This document shows positions 42,736 through 58,365 of a stretch of DNA of 64,000 nucleotides, in pieces. Source of the stretch: Phycisphaera sp. (GTDB lineage Bacteria > Planctomycetota > Phycisphaerae > Phycisphaerales > Phycisphaeraceae); contig WGMF01000005.1 of the NCBI GenBank assembly GCA_016125215.1, forward strand, positions 62,001 to 126,000, in the 5' to 3' direction. The position numbers were made by a program, and so were the translations under genes. Below the pieces are notes generated by a model. That model worked only from the letters and a program-made list of their open reading frames with translations, did not search any database and was not told where the DNA came from. How positions within the stretch are numbered: position 1 is the first letter of the stretch; every line of letters starts with the position of its first letter.

Positions 42736-43962
42736 TCACCCGCCGGCGACGACTTTGCCGACGCTGAAGATCGGCAGGAGCAGCGAGATGGCGACGAAGC
42801 CCACGAGCAGGCCCATCGCGCCGACCATGACGGGTTCGATGAATTGCGTCGCGGTCTTGACCGCCGTGTCGAATTCCTGCTCGGTGAAGGTGGCCACGCG
42901 CTCGAGGGTCTTGCCTAATCGGCCGGACTTTTCGCCGCTGAGGATCATCTGTGAGATCGAACGGGGGATGAGCGGGCTCTGGAAGAGCGGGTCGGAGAGC
43001 TGCGAACCCTGGCGCAGGCGTTCGTCGACCTCGTCCCAGAGGTCTTCGTAATACTTGTTGTTGGTCACCTCGCGGACGATCGAAACCATGTCGAGCATGG
43101 AGACGCCCGCGTTGAGCATGGTGGACATGGTCCGCGCGGCCCGGCTGACGTAGAGCTGCGTGAAGAGCTGCTTGAAGACCGGCACGTTGAGCTTGAGGTA
43201 ATCGAAGACGCGCTTGCCCTGCTCGGTGCGCCCACCGAACACCACCGTCAACGCGATACCGACAGCCAGCGCAAGCCAGAGGTACCAATACGTGGTCAGG
43301 CCGCTGCTGATGGACATGAGCAGTTGCGTCGGCGCGGGCAGCGCGGCGTTGCGTTGCGAGTAGATCGCGGCGAACTTGGGCAGCACGAACCCAAGCAGGA
43401 AGATCGTGACGCCCGTGGCCATGACAAACATGAAGATCGGGTAGCTCAGCGCGCCCTTGATCTTCTTTCTCGTCTGTTGTTCGTTGTTGAGGTAGTTGCT
43501 CACGCGCTCGAGCATCTGGCCCATCGTGCCGGAGATCTCGCTGGCACGGATGAGCGAGATCATCACCGTGGGGAAGACGCGCGGAAACTTGCGCATCGCG
43601 GTGGAGAGCTCGACGCCGCCCTGGACTTGGCCGGTGATGTCCTTGAGCACCGCCCTGAAGTGTTCGTTGGCGAATTGCTGGGTGATGCAGTCGAGCGCTT
43701 CACTGATGGGCACGCCGGTCTCGATCATCACCGCGAGCTGGTTGGCAAAGATGATGACATCGTTTCGCTTGACCCGCCTGGCGTGCTGTTCAACGGTGAG
43801 CAGGTCGTCGCCCTGGGCGGCCTCGGTGGTGGGATCGAGCTTGACGATGAACTTGCCCTCACCGCGCAGGATGCGGCCGGCCTCCTCGAGGGTGGGCGCG
43901 TTGAGCACGCCTGTGGCCAGTTGGCCGGCGGAGTCTCGTGCTTGGTAGGCAAATCGTTGCAT
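42736..43962 (-). CDS. pilC: Type IV pilus / T2SS inner-membrane platform protein PilC/GspF
   Basis: The 408-residue protein has the two GspF repeats. The first includes FANQLAVMIETGVPISEALD and VFPTVMISLIRASEISG; the second SRAARTMSTMLNAGVSMLD and SISQMILSGEKSGRLG. Three membrane segments (about 170-190, 222-240 and 378-398) fit the family. It is the platform that the PilB motor turns. It is the last of 15 co-oriented genes and follows pilB by 8 bp. A double hairpin separates it from the convergent gyrB. Confidence 0.94.
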   Translation of the reverse strand: MQRFAYQARDSAGQLATGVLNAPTLEEAGRILRGEGKFIVKLDPTTEAAQGDDLLTVEQHARRVKRNDVIIFANQLAVMIETGVPISEALDCITQQFANEHFRAVLKDITGQVQGGVELSTAMRKFPRVFPTVMISLIRASEISGTMGQMLERVSNYLNNEQQTRKKIKGALSYPIFMFVMATGVTIFLLGFVLPKFAAIYSQRNAALPAPTQLLMSISSGLTTYWYLWLALAVGIALTVVFGGRTEQGKRVFDYLKLNVPVFKQLFTQLYVSRAARTMSTMLNAGVSMLDMVSIVREVTNNKYYEDLWDEVDERLRQGSQLSDPLFQSPLIPRSISQMILSGEKSGRLGKTLERVATFTEQEFDTAVKTATQFIEPVMVGAMGLLVGFVAISLLLPIFSVGKVVAGG

Positions 43963-43970
43963 GGTGGCGC

Positions 43971-45725
43971 TCAGGTCACCGCGGTGGCGGTGAGCAGTTC
44001 CTCAAAGGTGGTCAGGCCGGCTTTGACCTTCTCCAGGCCGTCTTGCTTGAGCGTGATGTAACCCGAAGCCTTGGCGATGCGACGAAGCTCCTGCAGCCCC
44101 GCGCCGCGGCTGATGCCGTCGAGACACTCGTCGTCGGGCACGAAGAGTTCGTAAACGCCGACGCGGCCGCTGTAACCGGTGTTCCGGCACTTGGCGCAGC
44201 CGGCTCCCTTGAAGAGCGACTCGATGCTTGGTGCCCCGGCCCCCGCGAGCTGGTCGAGTGTTCTGCGCAGGGTCGGTGTGATCTCAGCCGGCTCTTTGCA
44301 ATGGGGGCAGATGCGTCTAATCAGGCGCTGTGCGAGGACGCCTCGGATCGAGGCCGCGACGAGGTAAGGCTCGACGCCGATGTTGAACAGTCGGGTCACC
44401 GCGCTGGGCGCGTCGTTGGTGTGCAACGTTGAAAGCACGAGGTGGCCTGTGAGGGCGGCCTGGGTGGCGATCTTGGCGGTCTCCATGTCGCGGATTTCGC
44501 CGAGCATGATGATGTCGGGGTCCTGTCGCAACAGGGCGCGTAGGGCGCCCGCGAAGGTGAAGCCGGCTTTTTCGTTGACCTGGAACTGGTTGACGCCGCC
44601 GAGTGAAAACTCGACCGGGTCTTCGACGGTGCAGATATTGACGGTGTCGTCGACGATCTCGTTGAGCGAGCCGTAGAGCGTGGTGGACTTGCCCGAGCCC
44701 GTCGGGCCCGTGACGAGCACGACGCCGTTGGGCGAGGCGATGACCTTGCGCCAGGCTTCGAGCATCTGGAACGAGAAGCCGAGCTTTTCGAGGTTCTTCA
44801 TCGCGCCGCGGTTGTCGATGACACGGATGACGACCTTCTCGCCGAACTTGCCCGGCATGGTCGAGACGCGCAGGTCGACCGGGCGCTTGTCGAGGACGAC
44901 GTTGATCCCGCCGTCCTGCGGCACGCGGCGCTCGGAGATGTCCAGGCCGGCCATGATCTTGATACGGCTGACGATGGCGGGGGCGAGCTTGACCGGGGGT
45001 TTAAGCTTCTCAAACATCACGCCGTCCACGCGGTAGCGGACGCGGAGCTGGTTGTCGCCCGGCTCGACGTGGATGTCGCTGGCACCCTCCTGCACGGCAC
45101 AGAAGATCAGGTAGTTGACAAGCTTGATGACGGGCGAGTCGCCGGCGGCGCCTTCGAGGTCGGCGATGTCGGTGACCTGCTTGTCGACGAGCGTGAGCGA
45201 CTGGTCGCCCAGGTCCTCGATCATCTCGTCGATGACGAAGACGTTGGAGTCGGGCAGGTGGCCGTCGAGCGTGGCGCGGATGCTGCGCGCGGTGGCGGCG
45301 ACGACCTGCACGTTGTGCCCGGTGAGTCGCTGGACCTCTTCGACGACAAAGACGTTGGTCGGTTCGCTCACAGCCAGGGTGAGTTTGCCGTTGACGAGGA
45401 ACAGGGGGAGGACGAGGTTTTTCTCGAGGAACTCGCGGGGCAGGACCTCGATGACCTTGGGGTCGGCGAGCCTGGGCGAGATGGGCGCGTAGGGCACGCC
45501 GTACGCCCCGGCGAGCACCTCCATGACCTGCTCGTCGGTGACGAATTCGAGTTCGACGAGCACCTCGCCTAAGAGTTTGTTGTGGCCCTTTTCCTTCTGG
45601 TAGCTCAGGGCTTGTTCGATCTGCTGCTGGGTGATGAGGCCCTTTTCGAGCAGCAGGTCGCCGACGCGCAGGGGCTTGTCCGTGCGTTGAGCGGGGGTGT
45701 TCGGGTTGTTTTCCGTGGTAGGCAT
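43971..45725 (-). CDS. pilB: Pilus assembly/secretion ATPase PilB/GspE
   Basis: The 584-residue motor has an N-terminal MshEN domain (RVGDLLLEKGLITQQQIEQA, second repeat LGEVLVELEFVTDEQ), a linker, and the T2SSE ATPase core. Walker A is VLVTGPTGSGKSTTLYG; the Asp box and Walker B follow (LRQDPDIIMLGEIRD). The zinc tetracysteine is ICPHCKEP with CAKCRNTGY. MshEN domains bind cyclic di-GMP in several homologues, so the motor may be gated by it. It sits 3 bp after a STAS gene and 8 bp before pilC. It powers pilin polymerisation. Confidence 0.95.
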   Translation of the reverse strand: MPTTENNPNTPAQRTDKPLRVGDLLLEKGLITQQQIEQALSYQKEKGHNKLLGEVLVELEFVTDEQVMEVLAGAYGVPYAPISPRLADPKVIEVLPREFLEKNLVLPLFLVNGKLTLAVSEPTNVFVVEEVQRLTGHNVQVVAATARSIRATLDGHLPDSNVFVIDEMIEDLGDQSLTLVDKQVTDIADLEGAAGDSPVIKLVNYLIFCAVQEGASDIHVEPGDNQLRVRYRVDGVMFEKLKPPVKLAPAIVSRIKIMAGLDISERRVPQDGGINVVLDKRPVDLRVSTMPGKFGEKVVIRVIDNRGAMKNLEKLGFSFQMLEAWRKVIASPNGVVLVTGPTGSGKSTTLYGSLNEIVDDTVNICTVEDPVEFSLGGVNQFQVNEKAGFTFAGALRALLRQDPDIIMLGEIRDMETAKIATQAALTGHLVLSTLHTNDAPSAVTRLFNIGVEPYLVAASIRGVLAQRLIRRICPHCKEPAEITPTLRRTLDQLAGAGAPSIESLFKGAGCAKCRNTGYSGRVGVYELFVPDDECLDGISRGAGLQELRRIAKASGYITLKQDGLEKVKAGLTTFEELLTATAVT

Positions 45726-45728
45726 GGC

Positions 45729-46064
45729 TTATCGGAGGCTCTTGATGGCGGACTCCACGCTGGGGTGTTTGTCGAATCGACTGGCAAGACGGGTGATCTC
45801 AAGGATCGTGTTGACGTTGTCCTGGACGTTGGCCAGGCGGACCTGTCCGAGCTGTTCGCCGCACCGCTCCTGAAGCCAGATGATCGCCTCCAGCCCCGCC
45901 GAGTCGATGAACTCCATCTCGTTCACGTCGAGGACGAAGTCCCGCGTGTTGTTGTCCATCATCTGCACCACGAGCTTGCGCAGGTGGTCGGTGGATTCGT
46001 GGGTCAGGTCGCCCTGGAGATTCAGGACGCTGACCTGGTTGTGGTCTTCGTGTGTGAGTTTCAT
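45729..46064 (-). CDS. STAS-domain protein (anti-sigma factor antagonist-like)
   Basis: The 111-residue product is a single STAS domain: VSVLNLQGDLTHESTDHLRKL, FVLDVNEMEFIDSAGLEAI with the phosphorylatable Ser in IDSAGL, and VRLANVQDNVNTILEIT. It resembles SpoIIAA/RsbV. No cognate kinase of the SpoIIAB type is adjacent. It overlaps the HD-GYP gene by 4 bp and precedes pilB by 3 bp, so it is part of the pilus operon. It may transmit a phosphorylation signal to the motor; its partner is unknown. Confidence 0.88.
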   Translation of the reverse strand: MKLTHEDHNQVSVLNLQGDLTHESTDHLRKLVVQMMDNNTRDFVLDVNEMEFIDSAGLEAIIWLQERCGEQLGQVRLANVQDNVNTILEITRLASRFDKHPSVESAIKSLR

Positions 46065-47767
46065 GGTTGAGTGCCCTGGTCGTTGACATCGCCGGCCAGA
46101 CCCGTGGCGGTCTCGTGGTTGTGTCGGTCCAGCAGTTCATAGAACGGGCGGAAGTCGAGCTTGACGAAGACGGACGCCAGCTCGGGATCGAACTGCGTGC
46201 CCGCGCATCGTTCGATCTCGCCCAGCACGTGTTTGAGGTTCATGGCCTCGCGGTAGGTGCGGTTGGAGCTCATGGCGTCGAAGGAGTCCGCGAGGCAGAT
46301 GAGCCGACCAAAGAGCGGGATCTCGTGCCCGGCCAGCCCGTGCGGGTAGCCGCAGCCGTCGAATCGTTCGTGGTGGTAGAGCACGCCGGGGATCAGGTCC
46401 TGCATCTGCCGGATGTCCTGCAGGATGGTGGCGCCGATCTCGGGGTGCCTGCGGATCATGGCGAACTCATCTTCGCTCAGGCGTCCGGGTTTACAGAGCA
46501 CCGACTCGGGCACGCCGATCTTGCCCACGTCGTGGACGAGGGCTGAGATGTAGATGCGTTCGACGGTGTGGCTGTCGAAGCCGGCGGCCTCGGCGAGCAT
46601 GCGTGCCAGCAGCGCGACGCGCTCGGAGTGACCGTGTGTGTAGTTGTCCTTGGCGTCGATGGAGGCGGTCAGGGCGTGGAGCGTGCCGAGGAACATGGCG
46701 TGCATGTCCTCGTAGAGCATGGCGTTTTCGAGGAAGATGGCGATCGAATTGGCCAGCGACGAACAGAGCTTGGAATCGTTGGAGGCGATCTGCGAACCAT
46801 CGAGCTTGTCGCCGCCGAAGAGCAGGCCCACGGTCCTGCGTTCGTGCGTGAGCGGGATGACGAGCAGGCTCGATGCGAGGCGTGCCAGGTGTGGGATGGA
46901 ATAGGCGCGCGTATCGTCGATGACGGTGGGCAACGAGCCGTCGGCGTGCCTTTGGATGAGCAACCGGGCGATGCGTGTGAGGATCGACTTGTCGCAGCCG
47001 GTCTGCCCGGAGACGAAGACCGAGCCGGAAAGCTCGTTGAGGCTCGGCTCGTCGTCGACGAGTTGGATGGCCATCCATCGCAGGCCGACGACCTCGCGCA
47101 GGCCGTCGCAGGCGTGGTTGAGGAACTGGGCCGGCCCGCCCTGCACGTCGCGCACGCTCATGCTCGACGAGAGCTTGTAGAGCAGGCTCAATTCTTCGTA
47201 CGACTCGCCGAGTTGCTGGCTGAGCGATTGGATCTCGATCAGTCGGCGGTCGATCTCGAGCGAGTCTTCGTGCATCCAGGCGATGGTGGCGGCCAGCCTT
47301 GCGCACTCGGCTTCGGTGACGAGTTGGTCGGGCTCAACACGCTTAACGCTTGCTTCAAAGTCCAGGCCCTGCGTGTTGCAGGCGTGGCGGAGCTGGTCGC
47401 TTTCAAGGATGTCCCTGCCCATGACCAAGGCGACGAAGATCGGCTCGTTGGGCTTGTGTTGCCGGCCTGCGCCCACGCGCCGCCTGCGAGATGACGGCAA
47501 TGCGACCAGCCACAGGCCAGGCCAGACCTCGATGGGTTGACCCGGGGCATCACGCAAATCGTTGATGTGCCGACGCACGGTCGACGTGAACACGGCGGAC
47601 GTCAGCACAACCCGTTCGATCCACCGCCCGCCGCCCTGGGTGCAGACCACCGCCTCGCCGCTTTCGTGCAGCGCCGCGACAGTCACGCCCAGCGCCATGA
47701 GCCTGCGCTGGGTGCGCTCGCTCAAAGGCGTGATCGTGGAATCGGGTTGGGTCAGCGTCGGGTCCAC
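46061..47767 (-). CDS. GAF and HD-GYP domain protein
   Basis: The 568-residue protein has an uncharacterised N-terminal region (1-180) and a GAF domain (about 205-350). The HD-GYP domain follows, with HD at 412-413 in VHDVGKIGVP and HHERFDGCGYP at 465-475. HD-GYP enzymes hydrolyse cyclic di-GMP, and all the motif residues look intact. No membrane segment is seen. It lies between the response regulator gene and the STAS gene, overlapping the latter by 4 bp. It probably lowers cyclic di-GMP near the pilus motor. Confidence 0.93.
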   Translation of the reverse strand: MDPTLTQPDSTITPLSERTQRRLMALGVTVAALHESGEAVVCTQGGGRWIERVVLTSAVFTSTVRRHINDLRDAPGQPIEVWPGLWLVALPSSRRRRVGAGRQHKPNEPIFVALVMGRDILESDQLRHACNTQGLDFEASVKRVEPDQLVTEAECARLAATIAWMHEDSLEIDRRLIEIQSLSQQLGESYEELSLLYKLSSSMSVRDVQGGPAQFLNHACDGLREVVGLRWMAIQLVDDEPSLNELSGSVFVSGQTGCDKSILTRIARLLIQRHADGSLPTVIDDTRAYSIPHLARLASSLLVIPLTHERRTVGLLFGGDKLDGSQIASNDSKLCSSLANSIAIFLENAMLYEDMHAMFLGTLHALTASIDAKDNYTHGHSERVALLARMLAEAAGFDSHTVERIYISALVHDVGKIGVPESVLCKPGRLSEDEFAMIRRHPEIGATILQDIRQMQDLIPGVLYHHERFDGCGYPHGLAGHEIPLFGRLICLADSFDAMSSNRTYREAMNLKHVLGEIERCAGTQFDPELASVFVKLDFRPFYELLDRHNHETATGLAGDVNDQGTQP

Positions 47768-47770
47768 GGT

Positions 47771-48169
47771 TTATGCGTTCTCCGCTCCGGTCTTGGTGGT
47801 GCCCAACAGCTCGTGGACTTTGTCGAGAATGCCCGACGGGCTGAAGGGTTTGCTGATGACGTCGGCGATGTTGGTCTGGTCGAGCAGGTCCTGGTCAAGA
47901 CTGAAGCCCCGCGCGGTGAGCATGAGCGCGGGCGTGGCGCGGGTTGCCTCGTGCCCCTTGAGCCTTTGGCAAAGCTCCAGCCCCGTGGCGTAGGGCATCT
48001 GGTAATCGGTGATAATCAGGTCAGGCTTGCTCTCGATGGCGACGGCAAAACCCTCCTCGCCGTCCTCCGCGGTGATGACTTCGTAGCCGGCGTTGGTGAG
48101 CTTGAGCGTCACCACGTGAAGGATGTGGCTCTCGTCATCGACCACCAGGATGAGGGGTTTGTCACGCAT
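47771..48169 (-). CDS. Single-domain response regulator (CheY-like)
   Basis: The 132-residue product is a stand-alone receiver: LILVVDDESHILHVV with the acidic pair, the phosphoacceptor Asp in LIITDYQMPYATG, Thr in MLTARG, and Lys in VISKPFSP. It has no output domain, so it acts by protein contact, presumably with the adjacent HD-GYP protein, whose gene starts 3 bp later. The upstream gene, 50 bp away, encodes a sensor kinase that is the probable phosphodonor. Confidence 0.94.
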   Translation of the reverse strand: MRDKPLILVVDDESHILHVVTLKLTNAGYEVITAEDGEEGFAVAIESKPDLIITDYQMPYATGLELCQRLKGHEATRATPALMLTARGFSLDQDLLDQTNIADVISKPFSPSGILDKVHELLGTTKTGAENA

Positions 48170-48219
48170 GGGGTTCTCCGTAAATCGGCCGCGAACGGAT
48201 GGGCCGGGGGTCCGGGGGT

Positions 48220-49713
48220 TCAGACACGGTTCTCCGCCAGGGGGAGAGTGAAGCTGAAAACGCTGCCTTTGCCGACCTCGCTGGAGACTTCGATCCTCCC
48301 GCCGTGGACGGTCTCGATGATCTGCCGAACCAGCGCCAGGCCCAGCCCGGTGCCCTTGGCAATCTTCTTGTGGTCGTGGACGCGATAGAACTTCTCGAAG
48401 ACGTGGGGCAGGTGCTCGGGGGCGATGCCCACGCCGGTGTCCGCGACCTTGATGCGGACCTGTCTGTGGCGTTCGTCGTGTTCGATGGACACCGTGATCC
48501 GGCCCTCGGCGGGCGTGTATTTGACCGCGTTGCCGATGAGGTTGAGCACCGCCTGGGCGATCATGTCCTTGTCGGCAAAGACCTGGAACACCAGGGGCGA
48601 GGGCACCTCGACAAGCTCGATCTGCTTGGCACGGGCCTGGGGCTTCATGACGTCCACCACCTCGGTGACGACTTGTGCCAGCGAGATGTACTCGCGCTGG
48701 ACCTTGACCACGCCGGACTCGATTCGGCTGATGTTGAGGATGTTGTCGATAAGCCTCTGGAGACGGTTGGTCTCGCCCTGGATGATGTTGTAAAACTCGC
48801 TGCGGGTCTGGTCGTCGCGGGCCTCGCCGTCGATGAGCATCTCCATGTAGGCCTTGATGCTCGACAGGGGCGTGCGCAGCTCGTGCGAGACGTTGGAGAC
48901 GAACTCGGTCTTGTTCTCGGCGATCTCTTTTTCACGGGTGATGTCGCGCAGGATGGCGACCACGCCGGCGGTCTCGTGGTTGTGCGGTTGGGTGCCGGGA
49001 CGTTCGTTCGATGGACCGATGGACGCCAGGCTCACGTCGTAGACCACCTGTCGACCGTTATGGCCAACGACGTGCTCGACGTGCCTGCGCAGGGCCGGGT
49101 CGCCGCCCTCGCGGGTGTCCTTAATGAGCTTGATGAGCGTGTTGTCGTGGATGACCTGATCGACAGGCCTGCGGGCCGCGGCGTCGCGGTCAAAGCCCAG
49201 CGCCCGCGCCGCGGCCTCGTTGGTCAGGGCGATCTCGTTGAAAGCGTCGGTCACGATCACCGAGTCGGAGATCGAGTTGAGGATGGCCTCGGCGTGCTGG
49301 CGTTCGGCGTCGGCCAGTCGGAGCTGGATGTCCAGCTCGCGGCGCTGGGTGACGAGTTGCTCAGCACGGTGACGCAGGCCGGCGACGGTGCGTTCAACCG
49401 TGGCGGTGAGTTCCGCAAGTCCGAAGCGGGGCTCGTAACGCGGGACCCCCACAGCGGATCGGCCAAGCGACTCGACATAGCCGATCACCCTGAGCAGCTC
49501 GGTATCGAATCGGCTCATGGCCATCCAGTGGAGCAGCCCCGAGGCGACGCCGATGCCGCCCGACGTGATGGCCACAGCCGCGACGTGTCCGGAGACCGGG
49601 CCGTTCGACACCCACGTGGGCGAGGTCCATTGCATCACCGCGACAAGCGTCGCGACCGCAAGACCGACCATCAGGCTAAGCCACTTCCCAAACGACACGT
49701 TGATCGCCTCCAT
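48220..49713 (-). CDS. PAS sensor histidine kinase (PhoR-like)
   Basis: The 497-residue protein has two membrane helices (11-28 and 43-62), a PAS domain (140-260; AEAILNSISDSVIVTD, AILRDITR), a HisKA domain with His277 (FVSNVSHELRTPLSSIKAYM) and a HATPase domain (LIGNAVKYTPAEG, ADTGVGI, KGTGLGLALVRQIIE). The short periplasmic loop leaves little room for an external sensor, so the PAS is the likely input. The receiver gene 50 bp downstream is its likely partner. It belongs to the pilus cluster, 131 bp downstream of the TPR lipoprotein gene. Confidence 0.94.
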   Translation of the reverse strand: MEAINVSFGKWLSLMVGLAVATLVAVMQWTSPTWVSNGPVSGHVAAVAITSGGIGVASGLLHWMAMSRFDTELLRVIGYVESLGRSAVGVPRYEPRFGLAELTATVERTVAGLRHRAEQLVTQRRELDIQLRLADAERQHAEAILNSISDSVIVTDAFNEIALTNEAAARALGFDRDAAARRPVDQVIHDNTLIKLIKDTREGGDPALRRHVEHVVGHNGRQVVYDVSLASIGPSNERPGTQPHNHETAGVVAILRDITREKEIAENKTEFVSNVSHELRTPLSSIKAYMEMLIDGEARDDQTRSEFYNIIQGETNRLQRLIDNILNISRIESGVVKVQREYISLAQVVTEVVDVMKPQARAKQIELVEVPSPLVFQVFADKDMIAQAVLNLIGNAVKYTPAEGRITVSIEHDERHRQVRIKVADTGVGIAPEHLPHVFEKFYRVHDHKKIAKGTGLGLALVRQIIETVHGGRIEVSSEVGKGSVFSFTLPLAENRV

Positions 49714-49844
49714 TCACACCCCCGAAACAGGTGACACACAGTCGAGGATGGTTCCGAGTGGGGCGAGCGATTGATCGATCGGCTGTGAGAGGTGTCCCTG
49801 GACCCGTGTCACGACCGAAGCCTGTTCCCCCACCCGGCCCTTCA

Positions 49845-51068
49845 TTAACCTCCGTTCCCGGTGACATTGGCCAAGAGTTGCTTGGCGCGCTGGTCGTCGG
49901 GTTGCCGGCGCAGCGCTTCGGTATACGACTGGGCCGCCGCCTGTTTCTGGCCCTGCGCTTCGAGCGTCAGGCCTCGCAGGATCAGGGGCAGCGTGTTGTT
50001 CGGTGCAAGCTCGGCCGCCTTGTCAAACAAGCGGACCGCGCGGTCGTTCTCGCCGCGTTCGCGCCAGACCAGGCCGGCCAGGAGGTAGCCCTCGTGCCGA
50101 CGGGGTGCAAGCGCGGTGGTGCGGTTGGCCGCCAAAAGTGCGCCGGACAGGTCCTTGAGTGCCAGCGCGTTCTCGCCCAGCGCCAGCCAGGCGTCCACGT
50201 CGGTCGGGTCTTCCCGCGTGAGCTGGAGATAGACCTTCTTGGCGTCTTCGTAGCGCCCGGTCGCGGTGTAACACTGTGCAAGGGTGCGCTTGAGGTCGGG
50301 GCGTGAAGCCGCGGCCGGGTTCTTCAGGAGGGTTTCGAGATTGGCGGTGGCCTTGTCAAAACGCTGGGCACCGATCTGCGCGGTGATGAGCGCTTCGGTG
50401 ATCTGCGTGTCGTCAGGCCTCAGGAGCGAAGCCTGTCGGAACGCCTCCGCCGCGTCGTCGAATTTTCTCTGGATGAGATAGACCTGGCCGATGGCGGCAC
50501 GGATGCCGGCGTTCTGGTCGAAGTGGACCGCGCGGTCCTTGAGCAAGGTCAGGGCCTCGTCCTGTTGACCGGTGGCCACGAGCATCTCGGAGACCGCCAG
50601 AAGGAACGCGGGGTTGTCGTTCTCGAGGTCGTAGGCTTTCTGATAGTTCTCAAGCGCCTTGTCGGGCTGCTGCCAGCGCTGGAGGACCATGCCGAGGTAG
50701 TAGTAAGCCTCGGGGAGTTCGGGGTCCTGGCTGATGGCCAGCTCGAAAAGGTTTGCAGCCCGTTCGAGGTTGCCGCGCTCGACCTGGATGCGCCCGCCGA
50801 GCAGGTGCAACTGGGCGTTGCCGGGGTCCATCGCGACGGCGTCGGAAAGCGATTTCTCCGCCTGGTCGAGGTCGCCCGTGTCGAACTGGCGCTGCGCCAT
50901 GTTGAGGATCAGCGACGACCTGGCCGAACGCCACCGCTGCTGCGCGAGGTTCTTGTCCTCGGCGTGGGTGCGTGTCAAGTTCGCGCAGCCCGTGGCTGTG
51001 AGCAACACAACCAGGGCCGCGACGATCCACGCGAGTGTTTTACGATCCGAATACGTCAAAGGCGTCAT
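49845..51068 (-). CDS. TPR lipoprotein of the pilus cluster (PilF-like)
   Basis: The 407-residue protein has a lipoprotein signal (LTATGC lipobox near residue 28) and roughly nine TPR repeats. They begin NMAQRQFDTGDLDQAEKSLSD and continue through AYYYLGMVLQ, AEAFRQASLLRPDD and SYTEALRRQPDD. PilF-type lipoproteins help the secretin assemble in the outer membrane, and this gene lies 66 bp downstream of the secretin gene. It is longer than Pseudomonas PilF. An outer-membrane or periplasmic location is inferred from the signal. Confidence 0.85.
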   Translation of the reverse strand: MTPLTYSDRKTLAWIVAALVVLLTATGCANLTRTHAEDKNLAQQRWRSARSSLILNMAQRQFDTGDLDQAEKSLSDAVAMDPGNAQLHLLGGRIQVERGNLERAANLFELAISQDPELPEAYYYLGMVLQRWQQPDKALENYQKAYDLENDNPAFLLAVSEMLVATGQQDEALTLLKDRAVHFDQNAGIRAAIGQVYLIQRKFDDAAEAFRQASLLRPDDTQITEALITAQIGAQRFDKATANLETLLKNPAAASRPDLKRTLAQCYTATGRYEDAKKVYLQLTREDPTDVDAWLALGENALALKDLSGALLAANRTTALAPRRHEGYLLAGLVWRERGENDRAVRLFDKAAELAPNNTLPLILRGLTLEAQGQKQAAAQSYTEALRRQPDDQRAKQLLANVTGNGG

Positions 51069-51134
51069 GCCGCTTTTCCTTCCTTGTTGACAGCGCTCGG
51101 GGGGCGGGTGCGTCGGTCCGTCCCCGGCGGCGCA

Positions 51135-53411
51135 TCATTGGGTTTCACCGGGCGAGTCATCGACCAGCACCGCGGCGTCCTGCGACGGCTGGGTGTCGGT
51201 CTGCTGCGTCGAAGCGGACTCTGTAGCTGTGTTCTGCGAACCATCAGTGGCTTGAGCAGACTCGTCAGCCGAAGCCGCCGCGTCGTTGGCCGAGGCCGCC
51301 GACTCGGGCGCCTGAGCCGCGGCGTTCTCTTCCACCGCGTCGAGCACCTGCTGTGAAGCGTCGTCCTGCGCCTGGGCCTGAGGTTGTTCCTCGGTCACTT
51401 GCGTAGCGGGCTCATCGCCGGTCGCCTGGGCCGTGGCCTGGGCATCGCTCGCCGTGTCACCCGTGGCCCCGGCGGTCTGTTCCGCGGGGGCGGGGGTTGT
51501 GGCCGCGTCCTCGGTGGCGGGCGTCACCGCGGGAGCATCGGCTTCACTGACCTGTGCTTCGGTCTCGTCCGCGGGGGTGGCCTGCGTGTGTTCACCCGAA
51601 TCCAGGTGCTGTTGGATCAGGTTGTCCGCGGTGTGGTTGAGGATCGAGCGGTTGGGCCAGTAGATCTTTTCGCCCGTGAGTTTTTCACGCAGGGCCTGGC
51701 CCTCTTCGTATGCGGGGTCGAGGCTCAGCGCCATGTTCAGGCACCACAGGGCCTTGTCCTTGTCGCCCGATTCGTAGTACTTCATCGCGTCCTTCATGTG
51801 GGCGCGGACGAGCTTGGTGCGGGAGAAGGGCAAGAGGCCCTCGCGTGCGCCGGCCACGGCCCGCTCGACGGACTCGCTGGCCTTCTCGCCCTTGGCGTAG
51901 AGCGCGTGGTCCTTCATGATGGTCGTGGTCACGAGGAAGATCGTCTCGGTGCGCTTGACGGTGTCGTCCTGGCCCTTGAACGCGACGCCCACAAGAGGCA
52001 GGTCGCCAAGACCCGGAACCTGTCGGCGGGAGACGATGGTCGAGTCGGAGAAGAGGCCGCCGAGCACGACGGTCTGGCCGGACTCGATCATGATGTTGGT
52101 CGTCAGTTCCTGCGTCGTCTCGGAGGGGATGACGAAGTCACCCACGAGGTTGGTCTCACCGCTGCTGACGGAGGGACGCAGCTCGAGACGGATCATGTCG
52201 TCGTCACTGATAAACGGACGGACCGACAGTTGCGTGCCCGTGTCGAGGAACTCGACGGACTGGGTGGTGCTCGTGTCGGACGTCGTGGTGCTGATGTAGC
52301 CGATCTTGTCACCGACGAGGATCTGGGCCTTCTGGCGGTTGAGCACGAGCAGCTTGGGCTTGGCCACGACGGTGGTGTCGGTGACGGCGTCGAGCGCTTT
52401 GATGAAGGCGGCGACGGAGTTGGTGACGAAGCCGATCTTCGCGGTGGACGTGCCGGACTGCGTCAGGCCGGGGGTCGTCTGGAAGGCGGCGCCCTGGTCG
52501 CCCTTGACGCCCGCGGCCGCGGTGGCCAGGTCGGTCACGGCGTTGAACGGGTTGGTGAAGCTGTTGGCGGCAAAGTCGGCGAGAATGGTCATGTCGACGC
52601 CGAACGAGTTGCCCTCGTCCAGGTCGGCCTTGAGCACGGTGGCCTCGACCAGCGCCTGCTTGGGACGCACGTCGAGTTCCTTGAGCAGCTTGATGACCTC
52701 GTCCACGTTCTCGGGATAATCGGTGATGACGAGCGTGTCGGTGTTGGCAAACGACTTGGCGCCGCCGTCGGACTCGGAGGGCACAAAACCCTGGCCCACG
52801 TCGCCGCTGATCGCGATCTTGCCCACCGCCGAGAGCAGGGGCGAGACGAACGTCGAGGCGTCGGTCGCGGTGAGGTAGTTGAGGCGGTAGACCTGGTGCG
52901 TGACCTTGCGCTCAGCATCTTCGATGGTGCGCAGTTCGTCGGCGGTGTAGACGTAGATGAAGTTGCCCTTCTCGCGGTAGCCAAAGCCGTTGGTGTGCAG
53001 CACGGCATCGAGGGCTTCGTAGAAATCGACATCGTAAAGGTCCGCGGTGATCGTGCCTGCCACGTTTCGGCTGGCGACGAGGTTGCGCTGGCTCTGGATC
53101 GAGAGCAGCTGCAGGACCTTGGTCAGGTCCAGGTCCTTAACGTGCAGGTCGATCTTGCCAAAGGTGCTGACGTGGACCGCCTGGCCGGCGTTGGCGTCGC
53201 TGATGGCGGCGGCGGTGGCCTGGTCGGCGGTGGCCTTTTCAGGGGTGGCGTCGGCAAAGACACCGGCGGACCCTACCTGGGCCGACTCGGTCGCCTGTGT
53301 TGCCGGGACCTCCGGAGCCGATTCATCCGCCCCGAGTGCCGAGGAGGAATAAACCCACCCGGTGGTGCAAAAAAAAACAGCCGACGTAACCAGAAGCTTT
53401 CGATTAATCAT
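51135..53411 (-). CDS. Secretin with C-terminal TPR-like region and disordered tail
   Basis: The protein (758 residues from the ATG at 53411) has a signal peptide, an N-terminal secretin/TonB-like short domain (IDLHVKDLDLTKVLQLLSIQSQ), N-domain repeats (VYRLNYLTATDAS, DTLVITDYPENVDEV), and the secretin pore. The pore includes PKLLVLNRQKAQI, TGTQLSVRPFI and VPGLGDLPLVG. After it come a TPR-like stretch (MKYYESGDKDKALWCLNMAL) and a tail of about 140 residues rich in Ala, Gln, Thr and Glu. This tail is not part of usual PilQ. The start follows AAGGAG by 8 nt. It lies between the PilP-like gene and the TPR lipoprotein gene. Confidence 0.92.
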   Translation of the reverse strand: MINRKLLVTSAVFFCTTGWVYSSSALGADESAPEVPATQATESAQVGSAGVFADATPEKATADQATAAAISDANAGQAVHVSTFGKIDLHVKDLDLTKVLQLLSIQSQRNLVASRNVAGTITADLYDVDFYEALDAVLHTNGFGYREKGNFIYVYTADELRTIEDAERKVTHQVYRLNYLTATDASTFVSPLLSAVGKIAISGDVGQGFVPSESDGGAKSFANTDTLVITDYPENVDEVIKLLKELDVRPKQALVEATVLKADLDEGNSFGVDMTILADFAANSFTNPFNAVTDLATAAAGVKGDQGAAFQTTPGLTQSGTSTAKIGFVTNSVAAFIKALDAVTDTTVVAKPKLLVLNRQKAQILVGDKIGYISTTTSDTSTTQSVEFLDTGTQLSVRPFISDDDMIRLELRPSVSSGETNLVGDFVIPSETTQELTTNIMIESGQTVVLGGLFSDSTIVSRRQVPGLGDLPLVGVAFKGQDDTVKRTETIFLVTTTIMKDHALYAKGEKASESVERAVAGAREGLLPFSRTKLVRAHMKDAMKYYESGDKDKALWCLNMALSLDPAYEEGQALREKLTGEKIYWPNRSILNHTADNLIQQHLDSGEHTQATPADETEAQVSEADAPAVTPATEDAATTPAPAEQTAGATGDTASDAQATAQATGDEPATQVTEEQPQAQAQDDASQQVLDAVEENAAAQAPESAASANDAAASADESAQATDGSQNTATESASTQQTDTQPSQDAAVLVDDSPGETQ

Positions 53412-53488
53412 CCTCCACACTCCTTGGGCCATGGCCCGACCTCCACTTGGTGAATTCGATCCTTGAAAAACTGTTCCCTTGAAAACCC

Positions 53489-54037
53489 TTACATCTCCAG
53501 CTGCACCCGCAGCGATTCCTTCTCCACGATCACCCCGCGGGCCAGCACTTCGATAAGCTTGAATCCTTCGATCTCCTGTCCCACAAGCAGGACCTTTCCA
53601 TTGATTAGGGCCCACGGTCGGGCGCCGAGCACGGTGGACTGAAGCGTGAGCGACTTCTTCGCCTGGGCTTGCATGTCCGCCTCTCTGACTTCATCGGTCC
53701 TTTGCGGACCCAACTTTCCAGCCTCCGCCACCGCTTGGTTATCGAGCACTTTGGGGTAGCGGGTTGGGTCCCACGCAAAAAGATCACGGCCGGGATCGGC
53801 GGGGATCGTTACATCCACTACAACCCTCTTGACCGTCGCGGACCCCGCGTCGATCGGGTCGGGATTGACCACCGCCGAGGCCGCCGTCTTGGGTACCGCC
53901 AGCGCCGTCCGCGGGACCTGCTTGAGCAACAGCCGACCCCACAGCAACATGCCCACGCAAAGCAGGCCGACCATCATCGACAACTTTTTCTTGTCGGCGG
54001 TCAGTTGGCGGACGAGCTTGTTCTTCTTCATGTCCAT
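53489..54037 (-). CDS. PilP-like periplasmic protein
   Basis: The 182-residue product has an N-terminal cytoplasmic basic segment, a membrane helix (about 21-36), a Pro- and Ala-rich linker, and a C-terminal beta domain. The latter resembles the PilP/GspC HR domain: LTLQSTVLGARPWALINGKVLLVGQEIEGFKLIEVLARGVIVEK, given here in outline as positions 130-174. PilP links PilN-PilO to the secretin. Its position after pilO (3 bp gap) and before the secretin gene supports the assignment more than sequence does. Unlike PilP, it has a membrane anchor rather than a lipobox. Confidence 0.7.
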   Translation of the reverse strand: MDMKKNKLVRQLTADKKKLSMMVGLLCVGMLLWGRLLLKQVPRTALAVPKTAASAVVNPDPIDAGSATVKRVVVDVTIPADPGRDLFAWDPTRYPKVLDNQAVAEAGKLGPQRTDEVREADMQAQAKKSLTLQSTVLGARPWALINGKVLLVGQEIEGFKLIEVLARGVIVEKESLRVQLEM

Positions 54038-54040
54038 GCC

Positions 54041-54583
54041 TCAGCCTCCCTCCACGGACGAGAAAAACGCGCTCAACTCGATCTGCGCATCGACCAGACC
54101 GTCACCCTTGCCCGGCCGGCCCTCGGCCTGCACACGGTCCACCCGCACGACGCGGCGCATCGACTCGATCTTGTCCAGAAAGTCATACACCGCCGGGAAC
54201 GAGCCGCGGAACCGCAGCGTCACGGGGATCAGGCTGAAGTTGGCGTAGTTCACCGCGGAGCGCGTCTGCATCTCGCGGTCAAAGACGTTGTGGGACTCCA
54301 GGTCGTTGCTCAGTTGCTTGAGCAGGTCCGCCAGGTCGTCGCCCTCGGGGACGAATCGGCTCGATTCGCCCAGTTGCTGTTTGAGGTCGAGCACTTCCTG
54401 CGCCAAGCCCACGAGCGCCGCGGTGCTCTGGCGGTCCACGCCCATCTGGCGCTGGGCCGTCACCACGCGGTCGCGCAGCGCTTCCATCCGCTTGTGGTGG
54501 GGCATCCACAGGGCAAAGACAAACACGCAGCCCATGGCCACGAGCACGCCCAGGGTCTTGAACTGGTCTTTCTCAATCCGCAC
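54041..54583 (-). CDS. pilO: Pilus assembly protein PilO
   Basis: The 180-residue protein has one N-terminal membrane helix (about 10-27), a coiled-coil segment (30-75), and a ferredoxin-like periplasmic domain. That domain has LADLLKQLSNDLES, LIPVTLRFRGSFPAVYDFLDKIE and VRVDRVQAE. This matches the PilO family, which pairs with PilN in the inner-membrane alignment complex. It overlaps the end of pilN by 11 bp and is 3 bp from the PilP-like gene. Confidence 0.9.
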   Translation of the reverse strand: MRIEKDQFKTLGVLVAMGCVFVFALWMPHHKRMEALRDRVVTAQRQMGVDRQSTAALVGLAQEVLDLKQQLGESSRFVPEGDDLADLLKQLSNDLESHNVFDREMQTRSAVNYANFSLIPVTLRFRGSFPAVYDFLDKIESMRRVVRVDRVQAEGRPGKGDGLVDAQIELSAFFSSVEGG

Positions 54584-55301
54584 GGCTCACGCTCCCCGCA
54601 GAGGCCTGCGCTCGGTGGGTTGGATCGAACTTGTAATCCCGGTCCAGCGGCGCTTCGAGTTCGATGCTGAACTCCCGCGCGTTGTGGCCCTCGACCTGCG
54701 TCGGTCGGCTGTGGTGCATCTTGACGTTGATAAACAGCGGGTGCCCCGCGATCGCGCCGACGAGGTTGGCCACGTCCACGTCGTTGGGTGCCAGGCCGGT
54801 AAGCTCGATGTGGATCACGTCGCGGTCCTGTGCGGGGTTGTTGCTCCGGGCCTGCGCCTTGGCCGATTTGCCGCCGGCCGCCGACTTCGCCGCCGACTCG
54901 ATGGCGAGCTTCTGCTCCCTCGTCATGGGCTTGGGCCGATCGGTCCGTGTCTCGATGCGCGTCACCGTGATCTGGGACGGGAGTAATTGGCCGAGTGTGG
55001 CGATCACCTGCGTGGCGGCCAGAGGCTGCGCCAGTTCACGCTGGATGTTGACCTGGTGGATCAGGCTCTTGCGCTGGGCCTGGAGCTTCTGCATCTCGCC
55101 GACCTGTTGTCTGACGCTACGGGCCTCGGCTTCGACGCCCAACGTGTAATCGCGCAGTTGTCGGTAGCTGGCCAGCGTGCTGGCGAGGTAGCCCAGCATC
55201 ACCAGCGCGACGACGGCGATGAGCGCGAGCTGGCGGTAGACGCGCATGCGTCTGGCCTGTTGCTGGATGTAAGACCTGGGCAGGAAGTTGATGGGGTTCA
55301 T
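54573..55301 (-). CDS. pilN: Pilus assembly protein PilN
   Basis: The protein (242 residues) begins MNPINFLPRSYIQQQ, the conserved PilN segment that docks into PilM. A membrane helix (about 25-45) and a coiled coil follow, then a periplasmic alpha-beta domain with VIATLGQLLPSQITVTRIE and IHIELTGLAPNDVDVANLV. A Lys- and Ala-rich insert (about 140-160) is longer than in Pseudomonas. The ATG at 55301 overlaps the pilM stop by 4 bp; pilO overlaps its end. Confidence 0.93.
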   Translation of the reverse strand: MNPINFLPRSYIQQQARRMRVYRQLALIAVVALVMLGYLASTLASYRQLRDYTLGVEAEARSVRQQVGEMQKLQAQRKSLIHQVNIQRELAQPLAATQVIATLGQLLPSQITVTRIETRTDRPKPMTREQKLAIESAAKSAAGGKSAKAQARSNNPAQDRDVIHIELTGLAPNDVDVANLVGAIAGHPLFINVKMHHSRPTQVEGHNAREFSIELEAPLDRDYKFDPTHRAQASAGSVSRAD

Positions 55302-56449
55302 GCGGCACCCCGCTTTCTCGTGGCGGCAGATCGTGCCTCGCTCCGCATTGCCAAACCGGCCGCGACGCCCCACTCGCAGTGCGATTCACCCAAAACCTTT
55401 TCCACCGCCGAGCAGTCCACCCGCGTGAGCGGATCGCCCGTGGCAACTTCAACGCCAGCCTCTCCCGAGAGCAAACCGGGCAGACGCAGGTCGTACGCCT
55501 CGCCCCCGATGAGCAAGGCGGACTCCGGCCGTCGGCCACGGAACGTCACGCTGTAATACCGCAGGCACAACCCGATCTCGCGGGCAAGCTCGGTGATGGA
55601 CTCGCGCATCGCATCGTAGACCGCTCGCCGGATCGCGCCGTCGCGGTCGGTGGCGTTGGTCGTGTCCACGGCGGGGGAAACGTCCGAAGCCTGTGGCACC
55701 ACGCCGCGGTCTTTGCGTCGCAGTTCGCAGGCGTCGGCCAGGTCGATAGCCAACTTTTCTGCCACCGCGCGGTCCAACGCCTGGGCACCAACCTCGATGT
55801 TCTTGAAAAACACCACCCGCCCGTTGCGGACGATGAGCGCCTTCGTCGCGGCGTATCCGAAGTCGATCACGACCTGGGCCGCCGCGTCGGGGTCCAGCTC
55901 CGTGCCCGTGCTCAGACACCTGGCCAGCGCGCTGGGCACACACTCCACCGCGATGGGTTCAAGCCCCGCGGTGCTCAGCGCGAGCATGTGCTCATCGACC
56001 GCCTTGTGCGTGGCGGCAAGCAGGATGACTTCCTGGCGGATATCGTCGCCTTGACGGACCTCGCCGGCGTCGAAGAACTGCACCGCCGCCTTGTCCGCGC
56101 CGAGGTTCAATCGGTCGCTGGCCTCCCACTCGACCGCGGACTTGATCTCGTCGGCGGGCATGCGTGGCAGGCGGAGGTTCTTGTATTGGATTGCCGACGA
56201 CGGCAGCGACGTGACCACGCGCTTGCCGACAAACGGCCCGGAAGAAAGCATCTGCGCGATGATCTTGCCGATCGCCTTGGCGCGGTCCTCGCCCGCGGCC
56301 GGGAGGTCGGCGGGAAGCTCGTGCCGGGCGGCGGCGGTCGCGACAAACGGGCCGTCGCCCTGCGCGGTGCGCAGCTGCATCATGCGGATGCTGTGCGAGC
56401 CGAAGTCGATCCCGATCGGTTCCCTGGATTGTCCAAACCATCCTGGCAC
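55298..56449 (-). CDS. pilM: Pilus assembly ATPase-fold protein PilM
   Basis: The 383-residue protein has the actin-like fold of PilM: IGIDFGSHSIRMMQL, VTSLPSSAIQYKNLRLPRMP, AVEWEASDRLNL, VVIDFGYAATKALIV, and LLIGGEAYDLRLPGLL. It binds nucleotide and the PilN N-terminus at the cytoplasmic face. It overlaps pilN by 4 bp and lies 27 bp after the second pseudopilin gene. The C-terminus is basic and Ala-rich. It supports a true type IV pilus-type alignment complex rather than the GspL type of T2SS. Confidence 0.95.
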   Translation of the reverse strand: MPGWFGQSREPIGIDFGSHSIRMMQLRTAQGDGPFVATAAARHELPADLPAAGEDRAKAIGKIIAQMLSSGPFVGKRVVTSLPSSAIQYKNLRLPRMPADEIKSAVEWEASDRLNLGADKAAVQFFDAGEVRQGDDIRQEVILLAATHKAVDEHMLALSTAGLEPIAVECVPSALARCLSTGTELDPDAAAQVVIDFGYAATKALIVRNGRVVFFKNIEVGAQALDRAVAEKLAIDLADACELRRKDRGVVPQASDVSPAVDTTNATDRDGAIRRAVYDAMRESITELAREIGLCLRYYSVTFRGRRPESALLIGGEAYDLRLPGLLSGEAGVEVATGDPLTRVDCSAVEKVLGESHCEWGVAAGLAMRSEARSAATRKRGAA

Positions 56450-56476
56450 AACTGCGTCTCCTTACGCCGTGACCCC

Positions 56477-57040
56477 TCACGGCACGGGCGCGATGACCAC
56501 CCTTCCCGTAAAGGGCGAAACCGTGACGCGGTAGGTCACGTTGTCCGTCACGAGGTCGAGCGAGCCGCCCTGGGCCGGCGCGCCCAGCGCGTCGTACTCC
56601 ACGTATTTCTCGCCGCCGAAGTCCACGTTCTTGAGCCGAACGCCGGCGAATCGGCTGTCTTTGGAAAAGTTGATGACGTAGTTCCCGCTGCCCTGCGAGT
56701 CGCGCCACGAGGCCTGGAGCGTGTTGTCCTGGTCGTCGGTCATGCGGTAGCTGTTGCCGTCCACATCAAAGACCAGGCGGCGTGGGCGCTGCTGGGCGAT
56801 GGCTTCGTTCTGGGCGTAGAGCAGGTCGGCGATGACCATTCGGCCGGCGGCCTGCACCGTGAGCGTGCTGGACTTGAGCATCTGCGGCACGACCACCGCG
56901 CCGGCAATGCCGATGATCGCCACGACCACCAAAACCTCGATCAACGTAAAGCCCCCCCGCAAGCGTGTGACCACGTGACGACCGCTTGCCGGGGTGGGTC
57001 GGCTAAGGGTGGTCTCTCGCGTTGATGTCGGGGCGTACAT
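56477..57040 (-). CDS. Prepilin-type protein (GspH/FimT-like pseudopilin)
   Basis: The protein (187 residues from the ATG at 57040) has a prepilin signal, RLRGGFTLIEVLVVVAIIG, with the Gly before Phe and the Glu five residues after it. The leader is long (about 30 residues). The C-terminal part includes LLYAQNEAIAQQRPRRLVFD, typical of GspH/FimT pseudopilins. It would be cut and methylated by a prepilin peptidase, which is not encoded in the window. G-rich ribosome binding sequence precedes the ATG. It may cap the fibre. Confidence 0.88.
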   Translation of the reverse strand: MYAPTSTRETTLSRPTPASGRHVVTRLRGGFTLIEVLVVVAIIGIAGAVVVPQMLKSSTLTVQAAGRMVIADLLYAQNEAIAQQRPRRLVFDVDGNSYRMTDDQDNTLQASWRDSQGSGNYVINFSKDSRFAGVRLKNVDFGGEKYVEYDALGAPAQGGSLDLVTDNVTYRVTVSPFTGRVVIAPVP

Positions 57041-57099
57041 GGTGATCCTTCCCCCCTGGAGCATCCGTCCTGTTGAGGCTTCAACCGCCGTGTGGCCGT

Positions 57100-57366
57100 T
57101 TAGTTCTTGTCGGTTGCGCCTTCGATCCGAACCCGCGCTTCGCCGGACTTGAGCAGTTGGGTGAGCTGGTCAAACTTCTGGTTGAGCAGCTTGAGCTGAT
57201 CGATCATCTCTTTGCGTTGCGCCCCGCCGTCGGGAAGGCCGGCGGCCTGTGCGGTCGGGACGGTTTCAATCGAAGCCGGGCTTGTGGTCCAGAGCGTGTA
57301 GAGGTTGAGCGTGAGCAGGACCGCAATGACGGTCAGGACCGAGTTGAGGTAGCGCAGTGATCGCAT
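57100..57366 (-). CDS. Small single-helix membrane protein
   Basis: The 88-residue protein starts MRSLRYLNSVLTVIAVLLTL, a basic start followed by one membrane helix. After a short linker (SIETVPTAQAAGLPDGG) comes a predicted coiled coil (KEMIDQLKLLNQKFDQLTQLL) and a basic end. I do not recognise a family. The start is the ATG at 57366 with GGAG just upstream. It lies between the pilin gene and the pseudopilin gene in the pilus cluster, so a role in pilus assembly is a guess. Confidence 0.65.
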   Translation of the reverse strand: MRSLRYLNSVLTVIAVLLTLNLYTLWTTSPASIETVPTAQAAGLPDGGAQRKEMIDQLKLLNQKFDQLTQLLKSGEARVRIEGATDKN

Positions 57367-57445
57367 GGTGATTCTCCGTAAGCGTGTGAACGCCTCTGTG
57401 ACAACATCGACCAGAAACCGGCGCTGGTTAAGTCCGTTTGCAAAG

Positions 57446-57504
57446 CCCACACTCTCCGGGCGTGGGACCCACTTGGCGAGCGACCCACGACCGGAGACTG
57501 TGGG
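57446..57504. promoter_or_regulatory. Long-spaced inverted repeat downstream of pilin
   Basis: CCCACACTCTCCGG (57446-57459) and CCGGAGACTGTGGG (57491-57504) are reverse complements at 13 of 14 positions, separated by 31 bp. The element lies after the pilin terminator and before the small membrane protein gene. It could be an operator or a stem in the message leader. Confidence 0.5.
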
Positions 57505-57522
57505 CGTGCAACCGTCTTGCGT

Positions 57523-57556
57523 AAAAAGAATCACCCGGGCGGTGAGGCCCGGGTGA
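57523..57556 (-). terminator. Intrinsic terminator after pilin gene
   Basis: TCACCCGGGC at 57531-57540 pairs exactly with GCCCGGGTGA at 57547-57556 around a 6-bp loop. On the minus strand the stem is followed by TTCTTTTT. It lies 25 bp after the pilin stop, which would make pilin transcription partly independent of the downstream assembly genes. Confidence 0.8.
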
Positions 57557-57580
57557 CCGTGAATAGCTGGGGAGCGAGTG

Positions 57581-58033
57581 TTATTGCTTGGTCTGGTTGG
57601 CTTCATCGAAGCCTGCGGCGACGATCTTGCCACTGGCGGCGTTGTAGAACCAGCCACAGGTCTCGTCGGCGGCTGCGCCGGTGGGGTCGGTGTCGGTGTC
57701 AGCCCATGCCGCGACTTTGGTGGCCACGGTCGATGAGACGAAGGGGTTCTTCGGGGGGGCCTGCAGGTAGGGGCCAAAGCCACCGGACGCGACGGTCATC
57801 TCGTCCCAGTTGGTGGTCAGGGCCGAGGGGTAGTCGCCGCTGTGCTGAACCTGGTAGAGCTCGAGCTGCGAGCGGATGGTCTGCAGCATCGACACCAGGC
57901 TCGAGCTCTTGGCGCTCTCGCTGGCGTTGGTGAACTGCGGGATGACGATCGCGGCCAGGATGCCGAGGATCACAACGACGATCAGAATTTCAACGAGCGT
58001 GAAACCTTTGCGGACTGTTCGGGCTGCCAACAT
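57581..58033 (-). CDS. Type IV pilin / GspG-like major pilin
   Basis: The protein (150 residues from the ATG at 58033; an ATG at 58039 adds two) has a short basic leader and KGFTLVEILIVVVILGILAA with the pre-Phe Gly and Glu5. IPQFTNASESAKSSSLVSML follows, as in GspG and short planctomycete pilins. The globular part has a single Cys, so the classical pilin disulphide is absent. The AGGAG at seven nt before the ATG supports the start. A strong terminator follows, consistent with a highly expressed subunit. It heads the pilus cluster. Confidence 0.93.
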   Translation of the reverse strand: MLAARTVRKGFTLVEILIVVVILGILAAIVIPQFTNASESAKSSSLVSMLQTIRSQLELYQVQHSGDYPSALTTNWDEMTVASGGFGPYLQAPPKNPFVSSTVATKVAAWADTDTDPTGAAADETCGWFYNAASGKIVAAGFDEANQTKQ

Positions 58034-58365
58034 GTTCATTCTCCTCTGAAGTAAGACCGGCTACGTTTGCCTTTGTACGGGTCCCACGCGAACCCGACCT
58101 TTTTTTCTTTAGCCGCGGGGCAACAGGCCCACACGACATTACCGAATCACTCGTTTAACACGTCGGCTTCATCTCCAGCCGACTTAACCCGCCCGATCGG
58201 ATATTTCTTTCCACCCGTCGGGCACAGGCGTAAACAAACGATTCACGGGCACGCAATGCAAACGGTCGACACGCAAATACACCCCGCATCAACGGGGACG
58301 CCTTGCCCAGCCGTTAAGGGCGTCAGGGTTTAACACGCAAACGGGGTATCGCGTAGCGGATAAAC
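58034..58365 (-). promoter_or_regulatory. Pilin promoter and leader region
   Basis: These 332 bp between panC and the pilin gene hold no convincing ORF. On the minus strand the leader can form GTCGGCT/AGCCGAC (58162-58168 with 58177-58183) and CCCCG/CGGGG (58282-58286 with 58293-58297), the latter a weak terminator candidate for panC. A partial TTTAGCCGCGGGGC repeat and a T7 run lie near 58101-58125. I could not fit a cyclic-di-GMP riboswitch to it. Confidence 0.4.

Follow-up and report, generated by a model that had tools for sequence, protein, structure and literature searches.

Extension of type IV pili is best known to be controlled through PilZ, FimX, chemosensory systems and motors that bind cyclic di-GMP (c-di-GMP). 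The excerpted text of PMC11656802 describes a working pathway of this kind in Xanthomonas, PdeK-PdeR-FimX-PilZ-PilB, and a precedent for a STAS-domain protein steering c-di-GMP control is provided by HsbA-HsbD (PMC5085249, likewise in excerpt). Receptors of the MshEN type are recognised by two 24-residue motifs with a terminal Gln, set apart by a 5-residue spacer. The locus considered here lies in a stretch of 64,000 nucleotides (the window) of contig WGMF01000005.1 from Phycisphaera sp., and encodes a type IV filament machine in which genes for a histidine kinase, a lone receiver, an HD-GYP protein and a STAS protein are placed before pilB. The best overall reading, to which about an even chance is given, is that the filament motor is gated by a phospho-switchable STAS protein, with a local c-di-GMP enzyme as second input. 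It is built on anatomy, gene order, deep co-inheritance and active-site residues, from which four steps of a mechanism are proposed.

Within the family, 51 genomes were searched with HD-GYP and PilB, and as much as 20 kb around the matches was annotated with purpose-built profiles, giving 47 loci from 46 genomes, the window included; five genomes (G003, G004, G006, G007 and G030) yielded no such locus, and loci having neither HD-GYP nor pilB are invisible to this search. STAS and pilB occurred together at 36 of the 47 loci and were both missing at seven, pilB stood without STAS at two and STAS without pilB at none, and two loci (G005 and G015) were left unclassified, as the contig ended or the flanking genes were not recognised. 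Fisher's test on the 36/7 table gives 3e-8, a value that ignores relatedness and omits the two pilB-only loci. At all 36 main loci having pilB the STAS gene lies directly upstream of it. HD-GYP is present at 30 of these 36 and the receiver at 32, and STAS stays with pilB at the six where the motor is kept without HD-GYP; the kinase is found at 17 of 35 (a contig ends at one locus), the receiver occurring without it at 14 of these 35. STAS, labelled an added switch in a preliminary description of the window, is in fact the most motor-bound of the control genes. Because it persists where HD-GYP has been lost, disappears along with the motor even where HD-GYP remains, and never occurs without the motor at family loci, the motor is a likelier partner for STAS than is HD-GYP. 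A STAS protein serving the HD-GYP as HsbA serves HsbD was considered as a candidate and is disfavoured by the family loss patterns.

Of the loci lacking a motor, four have gyrB 59-132 bp after HD-GYP, which shows a clean absence of the motor genes at these four. STAS, pilB and pilC are lost from L070, L078, L083, L056 and L076 (and partly in L084 and L090), and M/N/O are also gone where visible, apart from a short M remnant in L083; the pilin, small transmembrane gene, secretin, TPR gene and intact HD-GYP are retained. A PilP match is kept in L070, L076, L083 and L056, and was read as a short N-terminal transmembrane stub in the first three. As a separate observation, an alternative pilus locus (L104, at 7-18 kb, L106 and L162) carries pilin-M-N-O-P-pilB-pilC without STAS, together with a receiver-HD-GYP gene and, transcribed divergently, a hybrid-kinase-like gene, in an RpfC/RpfG-like arrangement.

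Loci of the whole survey were picked via HD-GYP matches, PilB matches or STAS score, and counts from the STAS-chosen loci of the class and phylum are not prevalence estimates. In the order, kinase, receiver, HD-GYP, STAS, pilB and pilC follow the TPR gene in this sequence at 19 of the 20 loci anchored on pilB in five further families. Outside the order but within the class, with loci chosen by STAS score, the series from kinase to STAS was found at 23 of 25 and the STAS-pilB pair at 24 of 25, L176 showing no pilB. Its conservation from one family of the order to the next shows that the arrangement is not due to chance, and the idea of a lineage-specific oddity was rejected because it is retained at family, order and class level; judged from these comparisons, the control block appears to be older than the order. 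The four genes keep their place at nearly all of these order and class loci, and the scattering in relatives that would have spoken against a dedicated block, as the preliminary description had proposed it, was not seen.

At the level of the phylum, pilB follows STAS in nine of 15 loci chosen by STAS score; the other six have no pilB after STAS and appear to be other STAS genes. A GGDEF protein occupies the HD-GYP slot at L194, L196 and L197, HD-GYP and then GGDEF are found at L192, L195 and L200, and the receiver directly precedes STAS at L193, L203 and L206. GGEEF is kept in five of the six slot GGDEF proteins, that of L197 reading GGATF. The enzyme slot thus looks interchangeable in relatives (HD-GYP, GGDEF, both or none), the STAS-PilB pair being the constant, and the swapping of HD-GYP for GGDEF next to STAS speaks for genuine input from a cyclic dinucleotide that is produced or broken down locally. 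Ranking by PilB instead, across 24 genomes (23 outside the class and one inside), gave ten genomes whose best PilB match has a STAS match 34-161 bp upstream of it; GGDEF scanning of ten genomes from this set placed GGDEF directly upstream of STAS only in G328 and G308.

The same genome holds a second pilus locus, on contig C21 (L096), that is common to relatives. There, kinase and STAS precede pilB in all 15 loci whose upstream side could be viewed (L058 and L111-L113, second-type loci without it, were excluded), and receiver and HD-GYP form a separate nearby transcript. Both of the latter lie within the fetched stretch at 11 of the 15, HD-GYP alone at one and neither at three, a count that is biased since many loci were picked through HD-GYP matches; the STAS count is less so.

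The signalling proteins keep the residues needed for their predicted activities. The HD-GYP motifs HD..GK(I/L)G and HHE..(D)G.GYP are found in the window and its relatives: HD and GYP are present in every one of 38 family rows, three of these carrying Ser in place of the Asp that precedes GYP. Among order rows they are found in 18 of 19, with a gap in the remaining one, and they are kept in all 16 second-locus rows and at the seven motor-less loci. On these motifs the protein is likely to be an active c-di-GMP phosphodiesterase, and its retention at motor-less loci means that this input can serve something besides a local PilB. The receiver's phospho-acceptor Asp and its Lys are present in 39 of 39 family, 20 of 20 order and 15 of 15 second-locus rows, and the active-site motifs of the kinase are conserved too in the alignment of relatives. 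One receiver (L080, in G025) is degenerate around the phospho-acceptor, with Ala where Thr is conserved; its genome has no local kinase.

PilB had been described beforehand as carrying an MshEN domain, known as a sensor of c-di-GMP. The Pfam match (residues 75-157) is to the C-terminal half of that domain, not its binding half; that C-terminal half is, in the excerpted text of PMC5013675, not the main c-di-GMP binding site. The binding half (residues 20-72) scores 58.6 bits against an NCBIfam NF053729 cut-off of 38, and the genome exceeds this cut-off at five sites. The window has an intact motif I and the family a nearly intact one, with the terminal Gln kept in 58 of 58 rows. Motif II begins LLG, the terminal Gln is absent in all 58 orthologues (Ala, Ser, Gly, Thr or Cys stands instead), and the spacer has 7 residues in 56 rows and 8 in two, versus the expected 5, so that only motif I agrees with the two-motif definition. 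A simple loss of binding was considered, the Leu at position 1 of motif II having suggested it, and was set aside: in the portion of PMC11731258 consulted, this Leu is tolerated and may raise affinity, and an LLG start can bind very tightly. What counts against binding is therefore confined to the missing Gln and the lengthened spacer. A sensor role for PilB is favoured by motif I and the profile score and disfavoured by the motif II Gln and the spacer, and binding of c-di-GMP by the window PilB is possible, with doubt a little the heavier. The motif II Gln occurs in five of 33 aligned class- and phylum-level loci, none of the five belonging to the class. A link between canonical PilB motifs, which are seen at L192 and L195 too, and the slot enzyme was also considered, and the relation is not clean, as the five include L203, which has no cyclic-dinucleotide enzyme, and L197, with its degenerate GGDEF.

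Taken with the phosphorylatable Ser of the STAS protein, invariant in 51 of 51 sequences, the gene patterns suggest that STAS probably acts on the motor. In the proposed mechanism, STAS would be the phospho-switchable partner of PilB, or of PilB and the platform PilC/M/N/O, and would act as a clutch; the kinase would phosphorylate the lone receiver, which would modulate HD-GYP or STAS through contact; the HD-GYP would deplete a cyclic dinucleotide in the vicinity of the machine, c-di-GMP being the likeliest; and the N-terminal domain of PilB may read c-di-GMP, possibly in altered fashion. The receiver step, action on HD-GYP or on STAS, is held with belief and doubt in equal measure. With the motor as partner, the STAS target would differ from the known cyclase targets of HsbA-HsbD and BgrV-BgrR. 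A broader proposal is tentative and somewhat less likely than not: that STAS is a dedicated phospho-switchable motor clutch through much of Planctomycetota, used at two paralogous machines within a single cell, with a swappable enzyme and with a PilB site rebuilt in Phycisphaerae, half of the pocket being kept and half altered.

Several observations weigh against a STAS-gated motor with a local second input. HD-GYP persists without a local motor at the seven family loci that lack STAS, pilB and pilC, and the motif II Gln is lost throughout the PilB orthologues as described above. Two relocated pilB orthologues (G029 and G041; L104 and L106) are without STAS, at a different locus adjoining a divergent hybrid-kinase-like gene and a receiver-HD-GYP gene; the exception in the order, L162, has the alternative arrangement and also lacks STAS beside pilB. 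In the class, L210 and L211 retain STAS alone of the control block. The pilB-adjacent STAS of L188 has Gly at the Ser position, the one clear exception among 40 class- and phylum-level loci. No STAS lies beside the best PilB match in 14 of the 24 PilB-ranked genomes, among them G343, G305 and the in-class G143; many PilBs of these 14 are only 41-44% identical and may be of another type, and the other PilB of G143 (C56) does have STAS. Finally, the single RsbW-like kinase above 30 bits in the genome is unlinked (C3, 99 bits).

The rival explanation that survives best is the linear circuit proposed at the outset, in which the kinase acts through the receiver and HD-GYP on c-di-GMP, and c-di-GMP on the N-terminal domain of PilB, with STAS as an accessory. 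Gene order and near-coupled spacing, the NCBIfam c-di-GMP motif above cut-off in PilB, the exchange of GGDEF and HD-GYP at one slot and the Xanthomonas precedent (PMC11656802, in excerpt) are all in its favour, and the idea of a dedicated block has stood, the active-site motifs being conserved. However, an obligate local chain is contradicted by the family counts, since kinase, receiver and HD-GYP are each absent in lineages retaining STAS and pilB, and HD-GYP outlives the motor; with the motif II Gln gone from every orthologue and STAS the most motor-bound gene, the circuit in this form is unlikely. Decidedly unlikely is a co-inherited block with its outputs elsewhere, STAS taking part in a classical partner switch together with a sigma factor and the RsbW-like protein encoded elsewhere, and HD-GYP working on the global c-di-GMP pool. 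STAS proteins are usually sigma regulators, the RsbW-like ATPase on C3 could supply the partner, and HD-GYP is retained without a motor, but STAS adjoins pilB across the class, into other classes and at the paralogous pilus locus, and is lost together with the motor. Operon hitch-hiking, with the order kept for expression reasons and the signalling proteins lacking a specific tie to the machine, would fit the dispensability of several block members in single lineages, but is very improbable given the same four families, differently arranged, at two paralogous loci, the selective co-loss of STAS with the motor and the exchange of enzymes within the slot.

The machine itself comprises fifteen co-oriented minus-strand genes at 42736-58039, which re-reading of open reading frames and profile scans identified as one type IV filament machine, confirming the gene content and inserted signalling block described earlier (Table 1). 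The order runs from pilin, small transmembrane protein and pseudopilin through PilM, PilN, PilO, PilP-like protein, secretin and TPR protein to the kinase, after which come receiver, GAF-HD-GYP, STAS, PilB and PilC. Coordinates agree with the tight spacing noted before: 3 bp from receiver to HD-GYP, a 4-bp HD-GYP/STAS overlap and 3 bp from STAS to pilB. Pfam matches were obtained for T2SSF (PilC), T2SSE and MshEN (PilB), STAS, GAF and HD_5 (the HD-GYP protein), Response_reg, PAS-HisKA-HATPase, TPR, secretin, PilO, PilN, PilM, GspH-like pseudopilin and N_methyl pilin; PilP was assigned by position and a sub-threshold T2SSB match of 20.1 bits against a cut-off of 28.4. The gyrB and gyrA genes lie convergent downstream of the cluster and pantoate ligase lies upstream. 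The fifteenth gene, which the preliminary description did not name, encodes the small single-transmembrane protein; it has no Pfam match and is kept between pilin and pseudopilin in most relatives. The C-terminal tail of the secretin (51135-51800), about 200 residues long by eye, has a high content of Ala, Gln, Glu and Thr.

Table 1. Genes of the filament machine and its control block, in order of transcription (positions in the window)
Feature	Coordinates	Strand	Remarks
Major pilin-like protein	57581..58039	-	N_methyl; closest curated model GspG, under cut-off
Single-transmembrane protein, ~88 aa, coiled-coil-like tail (by eye)	57100..57366	-	conserved; without Pfam family
Pseudopilin	56477..57064	-	N_methyl, GspH-like
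PilM-like	55298..56449	-	profile match
PilN-like	54573..55301	-	profile match; ATG taken as start
PilO-like	54041..54583	-	profile match
PilP-like	53489..54037	-	position and sub-threshold T2SSB match
Secretin	51135..53411	-	STN, Secretin_N, Secretin; long low-complexity tail; ATG taken as start
TPR protein, likely lipoprotein	49845..51068	-	TPR; lipobox-like N-terminus read by eye
Sensor histidine kinase	48220..49713	-	N-terminal transmembrane segments (by eye), PAS, HisKA, HATPase
Single-domain receiver	47771..48169	-	Asp55, Thr85, Lys107 present
GAF + HD-GYP protein	46061..47767	-	catalytic motifs intact
STAS-domain protein	45729..46064	-	PF01740 58.1 bits; Ser55 within DS motif
PilB/GspE-type ATPase	43971..45725	-	c-di-GMP-motif half, residues 20-72; MshEN C-terminal half, residues 75-157
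PilC/GspF-type platform protein	42736..43962	-	profile match

Membership of the type IV filament superfamily follows from the assembly ATPase, platform protein, pilins with class III signals and secretin found with Pfam. The larger machine proteins score high on NCBIfam models of type IVa pili and type II secretion, and nonetheless no curated equivalog cut-off for either system was reached by PilB, PilC, the secretin, PilM or the pilin (type IVa pilus: PilB 602.6 vs 675.65, PilQ 215.9 vs 284.35, PilM 119.6 vs 133; type II secretion: GspE 591.3 vs 630.25, GspF 333.4 vs 424, GspD 194.9 vs 351.35, GspG 53.9 vs 88.85). From these scores the machine is classed as a type IV filament machine intermediate between the two. 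The suggestion that it may secrete rather than retract had leaned on a missing retraction ATPase and prepilin peptidase. That is correct for the cluster, inside which no PilT was found, but not for the genome, which has three PilT-family ATPases above the NCBIfam cut-off (contigs C12 and C25) and three A24 peptidase matches (C14, C46 and C51), along with eight GspE/PilB-type ATPase matches above 340 bits. With PilT encoded elsewhere, its absence from the cluster is uninformative on retraction.

Among full texts of the open-licence PMC literature, no paper was found joining a STAS domain or anti-anti-sigma factor with PilB and type IV pili, and no work on the present locus was recognised among titles and abstract starts of its planctomycete and pilus papers. 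The machine is of a familiar kind; what is new is the way its control genes are arranged, which is deeply conserved. A STAS protein beside the extension motor through much of the phylum would extend the known motor regulators by a new class, and the natural swap of a c-di-GMP-degrading for a c-di-GMP-making enzyme at one slot offers a comparative experiment on local second-messenger signalling. In its N-terminus, PilB is like MshE, Thermus PilF and Myxococcus PilB, being of the MshEN type and above the NF053729 cut-off, but unlike them has a small residue for the motif II Gln and a spacer of 7-8 residues. After Thermus PilF (6f8l), the closest solved relatives of its N-terminal profile are PDB 5zfr and 5tsg, which we take to be Geobacter PilB; they align with no gap at the longer spacer, motif II starting RLG there and LLG here. 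The Leu at motif II position 1 is shared with Thermus GSPII-B (PMC11731258, as excerpted). As in the Xanthomonas pathway, a two-component system, a c-di-GMP phosphodiesterase and the PilB extension motor are brought together, but there, in the excerpted text of PMC11656802, the phosphodiesterase is an EAL domain carried by the response regulator, and FimX and PilZ serve as readers, whereas here the HD-GYP is separate and STAS adjoins pilB. The closest parallels for the STAS protein are HsbR-HsbA-HsbD (PMC5085249) and BgrV-BgrR (PMC8457831), in which, according to excerpts of both papers, a Ser-phosphorylated STAS protein is tied to c-di-GMP metabolism and motility and has a diguanylate cyclase or FlgM as target; at the present locus, by contrast, the constant neighbour is the pilus motor, and STAS outlasts the c-di-GMP enzyme.

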